A stretch of DNA of 64,000 nt from Alphaproteobacteria bacterium (GTDB lineage: Bacteria; Pseudomonadota; Alphaproteobacteria; Rhodobacterales; Rhodobacteraceae). The translations under genes were made by a program, and so were the position numbers. Below are positions 23,910-41,965 of this stretch, in pieces. The DNA is taken from NCBI GenBank assembly GCA_030427405.1, contig JAUHXK010000007.1:186001-250000 (forward strand). The letters run 5' to 3'. The first letter of the stretch is position 1. Each line of letters begins with the position of its first letter. Below the pieces are notes generated by a model. The model saw nothing but the letters and a program-made list of their open reading frames with translations, was not told the origin of the DNA and ran no database searches.

Positions 23910-24884
23910 ATGAAATTCAGCACCTTTGCCGCTATGGCTGTTGCCACCGTTGCCGCGTTGCCCGCAACTGCACAGGACCGGGAAGGATGGCCCGACAGCA
24001 TCACGATCGGAACCGGCAGCCAGGGGGGGACCTATTTCGGGTATGGCAGCGGTTTCGGCGCGATGATCAGCGAGAACCTGGACATCAATGCCGGTGCCGA
24101 GATCACCGGCGGCCCGGTGCAAAACGTCACGCTGGTCGAAACCGGTGAACATCAGCTTGGCTTTGTCACACTTGGCCCCGCGGACGAGGCCCGCAAGGGC
24201 GAAAGCCCGCTGATGCCGGGTGTGCCGCATGAAAACGTGCGCGCGCTGTTCCCGATGTACCAAACCCCGCTGCAGGCTGCCGTCCTGGCAAGCACGGATA
24301 TTGCCAGCTTTCAGGACATGGCGGGCAAGCGCGTTGGCGTTGGACCCGCAGGCGGGACATCGGCGACCTACTGGACCCGTTTCTTCGAGAACGCGGACGG
24401 GTATGACGGCGTGGTCATTTCCAACGCAGGCGGCTCGGACACGGCGGGTCAGCTCAAGGACGGGCTGATTGACGCCTTCGTCTATGCCGCGGGCCTGCCG
24501 ACGGGCGCCTATGCACAATTGGCGGTCGAGAACGATGTGCGGTTCATCTCGATGGACGAAGAAACCCTGGCCAAGATGATGGAAATCGTACCGGCCATGG
24601 CTCCGTTCACGATCCCGGCCAATACCTATGAGGATCAGCCCGAAGACCTGCAGACCGTGTCGCTGTGGAACTTTGCCATCGCACATCAGGACATGCCGGA
24701 AAGCCTGGCCTATGCAATCACCGCGCTGGCCATGGAAAACAATGACCGCATGGTAACCAATCACGCCGCCGCCAAGGAAACACTGGCGGAAAACGTGCTC
24801 AAGAACCAGGTCATCCCGTTCCATCCGGGCGCTGTGAAGTGGTTCGAGGAAAACGGTTACGAGATTCCGGACAACCTCAAGTAA
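23910..24884 (+). CDS. TAXI-family TRAP transporter solute-binding protein
   Basis: Signal peptide plus 'ITIGTGSQGGTYFGYGSGFGAMISENL', 'AGKRVGVGPAGGTSATYWTRFF'. Confidence 0.92.
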   Translation: MKFSTFAAMAVATVAALPATAQDREGWPDSITIGTGSQGGTYFGYGSGFGAMISENLDINAGAEITGGPVQNVTLVETGEHQLGFVTLGPADEARKGESPLMPGVPHENVRALFPMYQTPLQAAVLASTDIASFQDMAGKRVGVGPAGGTSATYWTRFFENADGYDGVVISNAGGSDTAGQLKDGLIDAFVYAAGLPTGAYAQLAVENDVRFISMDEETLAKMMEIVPAMAPFTIPANTYEDQPEDLQTVSLWNFAIAHQDMPESLAYAITALAMENNDRMVTNHAAAKETLAENVLKNQVIPFHPGAVKWFEENGYEIPDNLK

Positions 24885-24972
24885 CCTGACATCTGAAACC
24901 AAAGCGGGCGGAGCCGAAGTCATGGGTCCGCCCGACGTGTCTCTGCAGCATTGTAAAATCGAGCGCCCGAGT

Positions 24973-27168
24973 ATGACAGATCATCCCAACAGACCCGCAG
25001 AGAAGGCCGGCACCGAAGATCTTGAGATCGACTTTGAAACGGCCGCGTCCAAGGTCGACGAAGAGCCTCTTTCCGCCAATCAACGCGATTTTTCGGGCTA
25101 CCGGAACTGGATCATCTCGGGGATGTGCGTTGCGTATTCGGTCTTTCACCTGCTGGTGATGAACGTCTATCCGCTGGAGACCTGGGCGTATCGCCTGTGC
25201 CATGTCGGCGGCGGCCTGATCCTTGGGTATCTTCTTTATGGGGCCACGACTTTTGGTGTGCCGCGGCCCGAGCGGAGCTCGCCCCTGTCCACGGCGCTTT
25301 TGGTCATTGCCGGGCTAGGGGTGTTTTATGGTTTCGCCGGGGTTCTGGCGGTCTGGATCAATGGCACGCTTATGGGTGTTGCGCTGCCGCCGAAATGGGC
25401 GATGTCCACGTTTGGCATTCCTTTGACGGTGGGCACGGCCCTGGCAATTGTCCATGGTTGGCTGTTTCCCGATCGGGACCGCGACCGGTTTTCGGTCGGC
25501 GATGCCCTGCTGGCGCTGGCCTCGCTGACGGCCATTGCATACTTGATTTTCTTTGCCCGTCAGTTGCAGCTGCGTGCGGGTATGCCGATGGCGCTGCCCG
25601 GCGACATGTGGGCGGCCGTCACCGGTATGCTGCTGATCATCGAACTGACACGCCGCCTTGCCGGTCTTGCGCTTGTGATCATCGCGTCGGTTTTCGTCGC
25701 CTATGCTTTTCTTGGCCCGTGGCTGCCCGGCATATTTGAACATCGCGGATATGATGCAAAACGGTTCTTTTCGTATATCTTCACCGATAACGGCATCCTG
25801 TCTGCACCAATCGCGATTTCGTCGACCTACATCATTTTGTTCGTGATCTTCGCGGCCTTTCTGCAAGCGACGCGCGTGGGTGAGTATTTCGTGAACCTTG
25901 CTTTCGCCGCCGCGGGGCATCGGCGCGGTGGCCCGGCCAAGGTGGCAATTTTTGCATCCGGCCTGATGGGCATGATCAATGGAACCTCGGCAGGGAACGT
26001 GGTGGCCACCGGATCCTTGACGATTCCCATGATGAAAAAGGTAGGCTACAAACCCCAAACCTCGGCCTCGGTCGAGGCCGCGGCCTCGACGGGCGGGCAG
26101 ATCATGCCGCCGATCATGGGGGCAGGGGCCTTCATCATGGCCGAGATTACCGGCATTGCCTATATGCAGATCGTCTATGCCGCGATCATTCCGGCCATCA
26201 TCTACTTTATCTCGGTCTATTTCATGGTCGATCTCGCGGCCAAAAAGGCCAACATGAAGGGCTTGCCCCGTGACATGCTGCCCAAGCTCGATGCGCTGCT
26301 GAAACAGGTTTACCTGTTCAGCCCTATCGTCGTGCTGATCACAGCCTTGTTCATGGGATATTCGGTCATCCGCTGCGGTACGCTGGCGATGGTGACGGCC
26401 GCCGTCGTGTCGTGGTTGACCCCGCATGCGATGGGGCCCAAGCGGTTGTTTCACGCCCTGGACGTGGGCGCGCGGATGGTCCTGCAGCTGGTGGCGGTCT
26501 GCGCAACGGCGGGGATTATCGTGGGTGTGATCGCCCTGACCGGCATCGGGTCGCGGTTCTCGACCGTCCTGCTGACCTTGGCGGATCAGAGCCAGATCCT
26601 TGCCCTGTTCTTTGCCATGGTGGTCTCGATCATCCTTGGGATGGGGATGCCGACCACGGCGGCCTATGCGGTTGCGGCCAGTGTCATCGCGCCGGGCGTG
26701 ATCAACCTTGGGGTCGAGCCGCTGGTGGCGCATTTGTTCATCTTCTATTTCGCGGTGATGTCCGCCATCACCCCTCCTGTTGCGTTGGCAGCCTATGCGG
26801 GCTCGGCGCTTGCCGGGTCCGACCCCATCAGGACCAGTGTCGAAAGCTTCAGGATTGGTCTGGCAGCTTTTGTCGTGCCCTACATGTTCTTCTTTTCGCC
26901 CGCGATGCTGCTGGACGGAACGTGGTTGGAAATTGTGCATGTCGCGATCACTGCCGCAATTGGTGTCTATCTGCTGTCCTGCGCCGTTCAGGGGTGGTTC
27001 ATGGGGCATGCCGGGGCATTGGTTCGCGTCGCCCTGCTTGTTGCCGGCCTGACGATGATTGCGGGCGGATGGACAACGGATGCAATCGGACTGGCGATCG
27101 TGGCTGCAATCATCCTTGTGCAAAAACGGCTGGTTTCGGCCCATGACGTCGCGCATGGCGCGGACTGA
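24973..27168 (+). CDS. TRAP transporter fused permease (4TM-12TM)
   Basis: Multiple TMs, 'GLMGMINGTSAGNVVATGSLTIPMMKKVGYKPQTSASVEAAASTGGQIMPPIMGAGAFIMAE', 'GMGMPTTAAYAVAASVIAPG'. Confidence 0.95.
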   Translation: MTDHPNRPAEKAGTEDLEIDFETAASKVDEEPLSANQRDFSGYRNWIISGMCVAYSVFHLLVMNVYPLETWAYRLCHVGGGLILGYLLYGATTFGVPRPERSSPLSTALLVIAGLGVFYGFAGVLAVWINGTLMGVALPPKWAMSTFGIPLTVGTALAIVHGWLFPDRDRDRFSVGDALLALASLTAIAYLIFFARQLQLRAGMPMALPGDMWAAVTGMLLIIELTRRLAGLALVIIASVFVAYAFLGPWLPGIFEHRGYDAKRFFSYIFTDNGILSAPIAISSTYIILFVIFAAFLQATRVGEYFVNLAFAAAGHRRGGPAKVAIFASGLMGMINGTSAGNVVATGSLTIPMMKKVGYKPQTSASVEAAASTGGQIMPPIMGAGAFIMAEITGIAYMQIVYAAIIPAIIYFISVYFMVDLAAKKANMKGLPRDMLPKLDALLKQVYLFSPIVVLITALFMGYSVIRCGTLAMVTAAVVSWLTPHAMGPKRLFHALDVGARMVLQLVAVCATAGIIVGVIALTGIGSRFSTVLLTLADQSQILALFFAMVVSIILGMGMPTTAAYAVAASVIAPGVINLGVEPLVAHLFIFYFAVMSAITPPVALAAYAGSALAGSDPIRTSVESFRIGLAAFVVPYMFFFSPAMLLDGTWLEIVHVAITAAIGVYLLSCAVQGWFMGHAGALVRVALLVAGLTMIAGGWTTDAIGLAIVAAIILVQKRLVSAHDVAHGAD

Positions 27169-27278: not shown

Positions 27279-28307
27279 TCAGATATTTTCAGAGGTGAAA
27301 ATGTCGAAGCCAAGCGCCACCCGCTGCGCGCCTTTGTCGGGGCCGTCCCGCTTGGCCTTTATCATCGTCTCGATTGTTTTCCGGGCGAACCGGTCCAGGG
27401 GATGAGAGATCACCATCTTCAGCGTGCCGTCGATCAGGGCATCGCGGGTGGCGTCGAAAAGTTCATAGCCTATTGCCACGAAATCATCCCGCTTGCCGGC
27501 CTCTCGCAGCGCAGCCAGCGCGCCGGTGATACCGCCGCCCGAGACAAACAGACCACAAAGGTCCGGATGGTCCCGGAAAAGATGTTCGACCATCTCACGG
27601 GCGACGGCCGAGGATTCGTAGGTCGCCAGGGGTTCGAGGATGGAGAAGCCGGTATTGTGTTCGCGAAAATATGACCGGAAACCACTTTCGTTCATTTCCT
27701 GGTTTCGATAGCGGTGGTTGCCGACAAGGACACCGATCTTGCCGGGGTCCTTGACCATATTGTCAAAGGCCCAGGCTGCGGTTCGCCCGACCACCCAACT
27801 GTCCAGCCCTACGAAGCTGACATTGGCGCGGGCCGAAAGCGGTGCAATCAGCGCAACAACCGGAACGCCACTTGCCGAAACCACATTGATCGCGTCCGCG
27901 ATTTTGGGATGCTGGGCGGCAACCAGCGCAACGCAGTCGCACGCCATTCCAAGTTCGATCAGGCGCGCCGCCACGTTGTCGGGTGAAAGGTCGTCGAGAT
28001 ATTCCAGATCCAGTTCGACCTGATGCTGAACGTGGCGTTCAGCTTCCTTTCGTATGGCACCGCCCAAACCCCGATAAAAGGCCCGCCCGCCCTGATGCAG
28101 CAGGATGCCCAGCTTGTGCGTTTCGCGCCCTTTCCGAACAGAACGTTCGAGCGTTCCAAGACCGTAAAACCCGATCTCGTCGGCGGTGGCCAGAACATGT
28201 TCCCGCGTGTGCTTTCGGACCGAGTCGGGATTGTTCAAAACCCGGTTGACGGTCGATACCGACACATCGGCCGCTTTGGCCAAATCAGCAATCGTCTGAC
28301 GTTTCAT
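27279..28307 (-). CDS. LacI-family transcriptional regulator (paralog 1)
   Basis: 'MKRQTIADLAKAADVSVSTVNRVLNNPDSVRKHTREHVLATADEIGF' HTH; periplasmic-binding-like effector domain. Confidence 0.95.
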   Translation of the reverse strand: MKRQTIADLAKAADVSVSTVNRVLNNPDSVRKHTREHVLATADEIGFYGLGTLERSVRKGRETHKLGILLHQGGRAFYRGLGGAIRKEAERHVQHQVELDLEYLDDLSPDNVAARLIELGMACDCVALVAAQHPKIADAINVVSASGVPVVALIAPLSARANVSFVGLDSWVVGRTAAWAFDNMVKDPGKIGVLVGNHRYRNQEMNESGFRSYFREHNTGFSILEPLATYESSAVAREMVEHLFRDHPDLCGLFVSGGGITGALAALREAGKRDDFVAIGYELFDATRDALIDGTLKMVISHPLDRFARKTIETMIKAKRDGPDKGAQRVALGFDIFTSENI

Positions 28308-29906: not shown

Positions 29907-30725
29907 ATGTATCACAACCGCCCTCATGTCGAGGATATTCGCGCCATGAAACAGCGTGGCGAAAAGATCTCGATGCTGTTTGTCACCACGCCCGAGGAGG
30001 CCGCGGCCGCTGCAGCCGCAGGCATCCACATGCTGTCGATTGAAGGGCGTTTTTTCGATGCTGAAATGCGCGAGGCCGCTGGCGATTGCTTTGTGCAGGT
30101 CGGCTTGCCCTATGGCGGCTGGGGCCGGTTCGAAGGACGCGCGATTGCAACCGCCGAGGACTATTTGCGGGCCGCATTTCACTATGCCGGAATTGGCGGC
30201 GACGCGTATTATTGCGCGGCGTCCTACGATATTCAGAAGGTTCTGTGTGACAATCATTTGCCGGTGGTCGGTCATATCGGTCTGATCCCCAGTTACATCA
30301 CATGGACGGGGTGGCGCGCCGTCGGCAAAACAGCCGAAGAGGCGCAGGCGCTATGGCGGCACACCCAAAAGCTGCAAGAGATTGGCGTATTTGCGGCCGA
30401 GCTTGAGGTCGTGCCAGATCGGGTCGCCAGGTTCCTGACGGAAAACTCGTCTTTGATCATGCTTGGGATGGGGGCGGGGGAACATGCGGATGCCCAGTAC
30501 CTGTTTACCGAAGACGTCTGCGGTTACGGCCGGAACCACAAACCGCGTCACGGCAAGCAATACCGCAATTTCGCGCCCGAATTCGAACGCTTGCAGAATG
30601 AAAGGATCGCCGCATTCCGCGAGTTCAAGGCCGATGTTGATGCAGGCCTATATCCCGGCAAAGAACACTCGGTGGAGATTACGAGTGCAGAGTTCAGCGC
30701 ATTCCAAAAGTCGGTCGGGTGCTGA
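29907..30725 (+). CDS. PanB-like (ketopantoate hydroxymethyltransferase superfamily) protein, divergent
   Basis: 'LPVVGHIGLIPSYITWTGWRAVGKTAEEAQ', 'AELEVVPDRVARFLTENSSLIMLGMGAGEHADAQYLFTEDVCG', 'YPGKEHSVEI' match PanB C-terminal motifs; several PanB active-site residues not conserved. Confidence 0.7.
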   Translation: MYHNRPHVEDIRAMKQRGEKISMLFVTTPEEAAAAAAAGIHMLSIEGRFFDAEMREAAGDCFVQVGLPYGGWGRFEGRAIATAEDYLRAAFHYAGIGGDAYYCAASYDIQKVLCDNHLPVVGHIGLIPSYITWTGWRAVGKTAEEAQALWRHTQKLQEIGVFAAELEVVPDRVARFLTENSSLIMLGMGAGEHADAQYLFTEDVCGYGRNHKPRHGKQYRNFAPEFERLQNERIAAFREFKADVDAGLYPGKEHSVEITSAEFSAFQKSVGC

Positions 30726-40068: not shown

Positions 40069-41965
40069 AAAGCTTGACCTGATCACGATCGGCCGGTCCT
40101 CGGTCGACCTTTACGGCGCGCAGATTGGTGGCCGTCTTGAAGATATGGGCGCCTTCGATAAGTATATCGGCGGCTCGCCGACCAATATCGCCTGCGGTAC
40201 GGCGCGGCTGGGTCTGAAATCGGCCGTGATCACCGGTGTCGGTGACGAGCACATGGGCCGGTTCATCCGCGAACAGCTTGCCCGCGAGGGTGTGAACACG
40301 GACGGGGTCAAAACCGATCCCGACCGCCTGACGGCGCTGGTGCTTCTGGGCATCCGCGACCAGGAACAGTTCCCGCTGATCTTCTATCGCGAGAACTGTG
40401 CCGATATGGGTCTGACCGAGGATGATATCGACCCCGATTTCATCCGTCGGGCGCGCGCGGTTGTGGCGACCGGAACCCATCTCAGCCACCCGCAGGTCGA
40501 GGCGGCAACGCTCAAGGCGCTGCAGGTCGCGCGCGAGGCGGGGATGCAGACGGCGCTGGATATCGACTATCGCCCCAACCTTTGGGGCGTGGCCGGTCAT
40601 GGCGAGGGCGAAAGCCGCTTTGTCGAAAGCGCGGCGGTGACGGCCAAGCTGCAATCGACGCTGCATCTGTTCGACCTGATCGTCGGCACCGAGGAAGAGT
40701 TCCACATCGCAGGTGGTACCACCGACACCATCGCCGCCCTGCGCGCGGTGCGCGCGGTTTCGGGTGCGACGCTGGTCTGCAAACGCGGCGCGGCCGGTGC
40801 TGTGGCCTTTGAAGGCGACATTCCGGACACGTTCGATGAAGGCCAGACCGGACCGGGTTTCCCGATCGAAGTCTTCAACGTTCTGGGCGCGGGCGACGGT
40901 TTCATGTCGGGCCTGTTGCGGGGCTGGCTGGACGGTGAAAATTGGCCGACCGCTCTTAAATACGCCAATGCGTGTGGGGCCTTTGCGGTCAGCCGCCATG
41001 GCTGTACGCCCGCCTATCCCAGCTGGGAAGAGCTTCAGTTTTTCCTTGAGCGCGGTATCAAACGGGCAGATCTGCGCCATGACGCGGAACTGGAGCAGGT
41101 GCATTGGGCAACGAACCGTCCGGGCGATTGGTCCGAGATGCGCGTTTTTGCCTTCGACCATCGCAGCCAGATGGAAGAAATGGACGGCGCGACCCCCGAC
41201 AAGATCGGGCGGTTCAAAGAGCTGTGCCTGGACGCCGCGCTGCAGGTCAAGGACGGCGGCGATGGCTATGGGATCTTGTGCGATGGCCGTCTTGGGCGCG
41301 ACGCGCTGTACAAGGCGACGGGCACCGGCCTGTGGGTCGGCCGACCCGTGGAATGGCCGGGTTCGCGTCCGTTGCGCTATGAACCGCAGCTTGGCCCCGA
41401 TTTTGGTGGTCTTGGCGAATGGCCGCGCGATCAGGTGGTCAAGGCGCTGTGTTTCTGCCACCCCGATGACGACGACGCGATGTGGGCGGATCACCTGTCT
41501 ACCATCGAACGGCTGCATGCGGCGGCCCGGCGCAACAACCTTGAATTCCTGCTCGAGGTTATCCCCTCGAAAGTCGGAGAGGTCGTCGCCGAAACCACGC
41601 CGCTTATCATTCAGCGGTTCTATGACGCGGGTATCTTCCCCGATTGGTGGAAGCTTGAGCCGTTCAAGACCGAAGACGCCTGGCAAAAGGCCGTCGATGC
41701 GATCACCCGCAACGATCCCCGCACGCGTGGTATCGTAGTGCTGGGTCTGGATGCCCCGCAGGACGAGTTGGCCGCAAGCTTTGCGCTGGCGGCGCGGCAA
41801 CCGCTGGTCAAAGGCTTTGCCGTGGGCCGGACCATCTTTGGAAACGCAGCCCGCAATTGGATGGCAGGCCATATCACCGACGGTGAAGCCGTGGCCGAGA
41901 TGAGCGGCAATTTCCAGCAGCTTTGCGCTGTGTGGGACGCCGCGCGCGCCGAGGCGCTGAAGTGA
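40061..41965 (+). CDS. iolC: Bifunctional 5-dehydro-2-deoxygluconokinase / DUF2090 (phosphogluconate aldolase-like)
   Basis: PfkB motifs 'YIGGSPTNIACGTARLG', 'NVLGAGDGFMSGLLRGW' and C-terminal DUF2090 domain. Confidence 0.93.
   Translation: MSEKLDLITIGRSSVDLYGAQIGGRLEDMGAFDKYIGGSPTNIACGTARLGLKSAVITGVGDEHMGRFIREQLAREGVNTDGVKTDPDRLTALVLLGIRDQEQFPLIFYRENCADMGLTEDDIDPDFIRRARAVVATGTHLSHPQVEAATLKALQVAREAGMQTALDIDYRPNLWGVAGHGEGESRFVESAAVTAKLQSTLHLFDLIVGTEEEFHIAGGTTDTIAALRAVRAVSGATLVCKRGAAGAVAFEGDIPDTFDEGQTGPGFPIEVFNVLGAGDGFMSGLLRGWLDGENWPTALKYANACGAFAVSRHGCTPAYPSWEELQFFLERGIKRADLRHDAELEQVHWATNRPGDWSEMRVFAFDHRSQMEEMDGATPDKIGRFKELCLDAALQVKDGGDGYGILCDGRLGRDALYKATGTGLWVGRPVEWPGSRPLRYEPQLGPDFGGLGEWPRDQVVKALCFCHPDDDDAMWADHLSTIERLHAAARRNNLEFLLEVIPSKVGEVVAETTPLIIQRFYDAGIFPDWWKLEPFKTEDAWQKAVDAITRNDPRTRGIVVLGLDAPQDELAASFALAARQPLVKGFAVGRTIFGNAARNWMAGHITDGEAVAEMSGNFQQLCAVWDAARAEALK

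Follow-up and report, generated by a model that had tools for sequence, protein, structure and literature searches.

A protein annotated as the pantothenate (vitamin B5) biosynthesis enzyme PanB has lost the metal-binding site of that enzyme, does not belong to the pantothenate pathway and is instead a regular partner of oxygen-dependent enzyme sets that probably remove methyl groups from sugars, where we tentatively propose that it most likely handles the one-carbon (formaldehyde) unit that is released. The gene lies in a stretch of 64,000 nucleotides (the window; GCA_030427405.1, contig JAUHXK010000007.1, positions 186,001 to 250,000) from an alphaproteobacterium of the Rhodobacteraceae, and we refer to the protein and its relatives as PanBX. 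The linkage to the oxygenase module is shown by our data, whereas the chemistry is inferred.

The open reading frame is intact, starts with an ATG preceded by a purine-rich stretch (AAAAGGACCGACCCAATG) and encodes 272 amino acids. It matches the Pfam profile PF02548 with 120 bits, but only over residues 56-251, and it falls far below the cut-offs of both NCBIfam PanB models, TIGR00222 (88.4 versus 207.55 bits) and NF001452 (111.5 versus 272 bits). The best relatives of solved structure by sequence are all PanBs, although the identity to E. coli PanB is only about 25%. An AlphaFold model (pLDDT 91.7) was compared with the PDB by Foldseek and the best hits were all PanB (E about 1e-17, TM about 0.7), albeit with a large rmsd that probably reflects a different placement of the C-terminal helices. 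The end motif YPGKEHS and other C-terminal motifs of PanB are retained.

In order to establish the register of the active site, 118 relatives were aligned with 31 canonical PanBs using MAFFT. In PanB, Asp45, Asp84, Lys112 and Glu114 form the Mg2+/oxoacid site and Glu181 is the base. In the window protein Asp45 is replaced by Gly47, Ser46 by Arg48, Asp84 by Gly66, Lys112 by Tyr102 and Glu114 by Ala104, and a loop of 15-20 residues, comprising nearly all of Gly48-Ile65 (G-M...S-T..V-T), is deleted in the whole clade. None of the 118 relatives has Asp84, Lys112 or Glu114, and Lys and Glu are both absent from the positions of Lys112 and Glu114; eight have an Asp in the Asp45 column but never together with Asp84. 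His136 (His123 in the window protein) and Glu181 (Glu167) are 100% conserved in both groups, and Gly138, Pro141, Asp209 (Asp195), Asp217 (Asp203) and Pro257 are also kept. Conversely, Glu165 in place of Val179, Phe200 in place of Val214 and the pair Arg214-His215 in place of Lys228-Phe229 have been gained and are 97-100% fixed down to about 27% identity. The pattern is not due to chance and indicates a rebuilt rather than a decayed active site; a decayed pseudogene is ruled out by the intact reading frames, the strong conservation and the new invariant residues. The preliminary description, which reported that the two metal aspartates were replaced by Glu and Gly and the lysine/glutamate of the KIEGG motif by another segment while the His of GHxGL and the Glu of LE.VP were kept, is confirmed, with the nuance that the residue in register with Asp45 is Gly47 and the Glu (Glu46) is one place before. 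It did not list the loop deletion or the gained residues.

PanBX forms a clade that is monophyletic against canonical PanBs. A tree of 70 sequences, which included canonical PanBs from several lineages and three further kinds of PanB-like protein, separated PanBX with 99/100 support. In a search of 399 Pseudomonadota genomes, the strong full-length matches (over 300 bits) were all in genomes of the same class as that of the window, and the bulk of the rest (140 bits or less) looked like canonical PanB. Further PanB-like groups (loci L221, L222, L223 and L224) differ from both PanBX and canonical PanB, and one of them carries a CCGSPGPMG motif in place of VGDSxGM.

The preliminary description had interpreted the protein as a paralog with different chemistry rather than a pantothenate enzyme, and this interpretation is supported, although the new chemistry itself remains inferred. 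In addition to the alignment, in which the ligands are not in register in any of the 118 members, the same genome carries a canonical panB (363 bits with PF02548) next to panC elsewhere (C7:283514), as well as a second PanBX paralog (C7:381254-382039; locus L112:8231-9076). Of 35 genomes of the same family as the window that were tested for PanC, those with canonical PanB all have PanC, whereas those that have only divergent copies, four at 97-100% completeness (G014, G059, G093 and G094) and three less complete ones, have none; the four near-complete genomes carry one to several PanBX genes and are probably pantothenate auxotrophs. Furthermore, the relative RHE_PE00443 of Rhizobium etli CFN42, encoded on plasmid p42e, was reported to lack the metal-binding domain and to keep 5 of 12 active-site residues; the panB mutant is an auxotroph although RHE_PE00443 is present, and constitutive expression of RHE_PE00443 does not complement it (PMC3082293). 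The only PanB-like place that we found on p42e is a gene (locus L183) that belongs to the PanBX clade, is 50.6% identical to the window protein and shows the same altered sites. We take it to be RHE_PE00443 since plasmid and length agree, but the old locus tag was not printed in the record. That study does not appear to assign a function or family to the protein or to discuss its oxygenase context.

The context of the gene, which was not recognized in the preliminary description, suggests what the protein probably does instead. In the window, PanBX follows genes for a MocD-like oxygenase and a MocE-family ferredoxin in a putative operon, and the wider cluster looks like catabolism of an inositol or its derivative (Table 1).

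Table 1. Genes at and around the PanBX locus (window coordinates).
Position	Strand	Feature	Support
23910-27168		TRAP-type solute-binding protein (by sequence reading) and fused TRAP permease, directly upstream of the first LacI gene
27279..28307	-	LacI-family regulator with sugar-binding domain, divergent from mocD	PF00356 + PF13407
28467..29498	+	MocD-like membrane di-iron oxygenase (FA_hydroxylase / sterol desaturase family), first gene of the putative operon	PF04116, 67.5 bits
29566..29877	+	MocE-family Rieske [2Fe-2S] ferredoxin	TIGR02377, 145.7 bits, above cut-off 136.15
29907..30725	+	PanBX, divergent PanB-family protein with rebuilt active site	PF02548, 120 bits
30729..31766	+	Gfo/Idh/MocA-family dehydrogenase, starts 3 bases after the PanBX stop	PF01408/PF02894/PF22725
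31791..32819	-	second LacI-family regulator	PF00356 + PF13407
33267..34226	+	sugar-type ABC substrate-binding protein, distantly like the rhizopine-binding protein family	NF052284, 158.6 bits, below cut-off 420
34321..35358	+	sugar ABC permease	PF02653; start from codon-usage gene call
35370..36194	+	sugar ABC ATPase	PF00005
36293..37315	+	inositol dehydrogenase-like (Gfo/Idh)	NF052679, 262.6 bits, below cut-off 540
37312..38271	+	IolE-like sugar-phosphate isomerase/dehydratase fold	TIGR04379, weak hit, 32.6 bits
38306..39049	+	xylose-isomerase-like TIM barrel (IolI/Hyi type)	PF01261
39073..40068	+	inositol 2-dehydrogenase IolG	TIGR04380, 423 bits, above cut-off 355
40061..41965	+	IolC-IolJ fusion (5-dehydro-2-deoxygluconokinase / phosphogluconate aldolase)	NF047869, 681 bits, above cut-off 600

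To investigate whether this arrangement recurs, we examined 126 PanBX loci and 20 canonical panB genes as controls. Neighbours were called by codon usage, since antisense reading frames are long at this G+C and a longest-ORF call mislabelled many of them; as the codon-usage caller fails on low-G+C loci (L006, L008, L026, L093, L121, L128 and L170), the counts were obtained by tblastn. A MocE-type gene lies on the same strand within 6 kb of PanBX in 98 of the 126 loci, a MocD-type oxygenase in 42, a desaturase-type oxygenase in 46 and a Rieske oxygenase in 2 (any of these in 85), MocF in 33, PurU in 12 and FolD in 5, whereas none of these was found around the 20 canonical panB genes. The PanBX figures are minima because many loci are cut by contig ends. 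folD and/or purU lie downstream on the same strand within 4.5 kb of PanBX in 12 loci of at least four arrangements, in Rhizobiaceae and in several Rhodobacterales arrangements, and in locus L123 directly after PanBX; however, these counts are not phylogenetically independent, and 12 of 126 versus 0 of 20 is not significant by itself.

The carbohydrate genes differ between clades (inositol; aldose 1-epimerase-like plus Gfo and isomerase; rhamnose-mutarotase-like; ribokinase plus RbsD, some of these names being based on reading of the sequence rather than on a profile hit) while the oxygenase, ferredoxin and PanBX stay. The minimal unit stands without sugar genes, as desaturase-mocE-mocF-panBX behind a LacI gene, in R. 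etli p42e (where the reductase is an FAD reductase), S. meliloti and others. In relatives L004 and L005 mocF lies between mocE and panBX, but it is missing from the window cluster and the nearest homolog is on another contig (C7:250180, 43% identity). In a Mesorhizobium plasmid cluster (L186:8986-11436) a different 2Fe-2S protein, not of the usual MocE Rieske type, stands next to MocD, PanBX and MocF. In L124 (6808-8502) two tandem PanBX genes follow a Rieske oxygenase and a class II aldolase-type gene and are followed by an M24/creatinase-type gene and a MocD-type gene. The second PanBX of the window genome is the last gene of an operon that lacks MocD and MocE and comprises a PhyH-type dioxygenase as its first gene, a sugar ABC transporter, ribokinase, RbsD and PanBX, an arrangement also found in L114, although the dioxygenase was noticed after the hypothesis was formed and without a control. 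A few PanBX genes (e.g. L099, L119, L125 and L178) have no recognized oxygenase neighbour. Conversely, MocD-MocE(-MocF) clusters of S. meliloti pSymA and Shinella (L192, L193 and L194) lack any PanBX, and thus PanBX is not strictly required.

Among the closest known systems is mocDEF, which belongs to catabolism of the methyl ether 3-O-methyl-scyllo-inosamine (rhizopine) and was modelled as a ferredoxin-oxygenase complex (Bahar et al. 1998, cited in PMC10107442). The window shares with it a MocD-type oxygenase and a MocE-family ferredoxin next to inositol-type genes and a rhizopine-binding-protein-like protein. However, the described moc set (mocRABCDEF) lists no PanB-like gene, and we rejected rhizopine catabolism proper for the window cluster, since the binding protein is below the rhizopine cut-off and mocF and a MocR-type regulator are absent.

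In light of these data, we propose that PanBX is a one-carbon-handling partner of an oxidative O-demethylase, although this remains tentative. In this view, the MocD-type oxygenase, fed with electrons by MocE and by a reductase encoded elsewhere in this genome, would hydroxylate an O-methyl group on a carbohydrate, here probably an inositol methyl ether, which is a guess from the iol genes, to a hemiacetal R-O-CH2OH. PanBX keeps residues thought in PanB to deal with the hydroxymethyl group (His136 and Glu181) but has discarded the Mg2+/2-oxoacid site, and it would therefore most likely transfer the CH2OH unit, or formaldehyde, to tetrahydrofolate (THF) to give 5,10-methylene-THF, as PanB run in reverse would, with FolD and PurU taking it on to 10-formyl-THF and formate. 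A constant module attached to varied carbohydrate genes points to a product common to all, i.e. the C1 unit, and the downstream folD/purU genes suggest entry at methylene-THF. PanB is by definition a CH2-THF hydroxymethyltransferase, and the invariant His123, Glu165, Glu167, Asp203, Arg214 and His215 argue for an active enzyme. What our data establish is a conserved clade, the loss and gain of active-site residues, the lack of a link to pantothenate synthesis, the tight linkage to the oxygenase/ferredoxin module and the recurrent linkage to folD/purU; that the reaction of this cluster (or of mocDEF) is O-demethylation giving formaldehyde, that THF is the acceptor and bound by PanBX, and the catalytic step itself are inferred from sequence and gene context alone. 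Many PanBX loci, including the window, have no folD or purU nearby, and this genome has FolD elsewhere but no PurU above cut-off.

He et al. 2020 measured the spontaneous condensation of formaldehyde with THF as far too slow to sustain growth and considered PanB as a possible promiscuous catalyst, although deletion of E. coli panB (with ltaE) did not change formaldehyde-dependent growth (PMC7073904). A bolder reading, which we consider rather unlikely but which is not excluded, is that PanBX is a dedicated natural enzyme that loads formaldehyde or a hydroxymethyl ether onto THF, a reaction long treated as spontaneous, and is the unrecognized C1-capture component of a widespread alphaproteobacterial O-demethylase module for methylated sugars and inositols. 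It would then be the THF counterpart of the formaldehyde-activating enzyme Fae (H4MPT); Fae and Gfa (glutathione) also catalyse capture of formaldehyde by a carrier but differ in family and carrier, and no dedicated formaldehyde-THF enzyme was known in the literature consulted. If PanBX loads C1 units onto THF, it fills this gap, adds a fourth component to MocDEF-type demethylation, used on methylated carbohydrates in soil and marine bacteria, and could be useful for synthetic methylotrophy. Literature searches for PanB with demethylation, pinitol, MocE or formaldehyde found no prior description of this function; the missing metal site and the failure to complement were already known for the R. 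etli relative, whereas the pathway context is new.

Other explanations were considered. It is possible, but doubtful, that PanBX is a hemiacetal lyase that acts without folate, cleaving R-O-CH2OH and speeding up the release of formaldehyde and the free hydroxyl after MocD-type hydroxylation, with Glu165, Glu167, His123 and His215 as acid-base residues or new metal ligands. This fits the constant module with varied carbohydrate partners, the loss of the 2-oxoacid site and the loci without folD/purU, and needs no folate site, but such hemiacetals break down by themselves, and it does not explain the repeated folD/purU genes or why a folate-enzyme fold was recruited. Somewhat less likely, PanBX could be a C-C lyase or isomerase acting on the oxidised sugar or inositol itself, since PanB shares its fold with lyases and mutases of the related isocitrate-lyase / PEP-mutase superfamily (Foldseek hits included 2-methylisocitrate lyase) and the window gene sits among IolG/IolE/IolC-like genes; however, the partner carbohydrate genes vary widely while PanBX and the oxygenase stay, the stand-alone operons carry no sugar genes, and the metal/oxoacid ligands of PanB are lost. 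An assembly factor or scaffold for the membrane oxygenase or its ferredoxin, with no enzymatic role, would agree with the association being strongest with MocE and the oxygenase and with the loss of canonical catalytic residues, but it appears unlikely given the polar residues typical of an active site that are invariant down to about 27% identity, the mocDEF-like clusters that do without PanBX, and its occurrence with Rieske oxygenases and PhyH dioxygenases. Finally, a functional ketopantoate hydroxymethyltransferase (EC 2.1.2.11), perhaps with altered metal use, is very improbable despite the PanB-like sequence and predicted fold, being contradicted by the residues, by the separate canonical panB-panC, by the PanC co-occurrence and, for a family member, by the R. 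etli complementation test; the public records that name PanBX proteins 3-methyl-2-oxobutanoate hydroxymethyltransferase (L183-L186 and L195), most with a pantothenate GO term, are likely misannotated.
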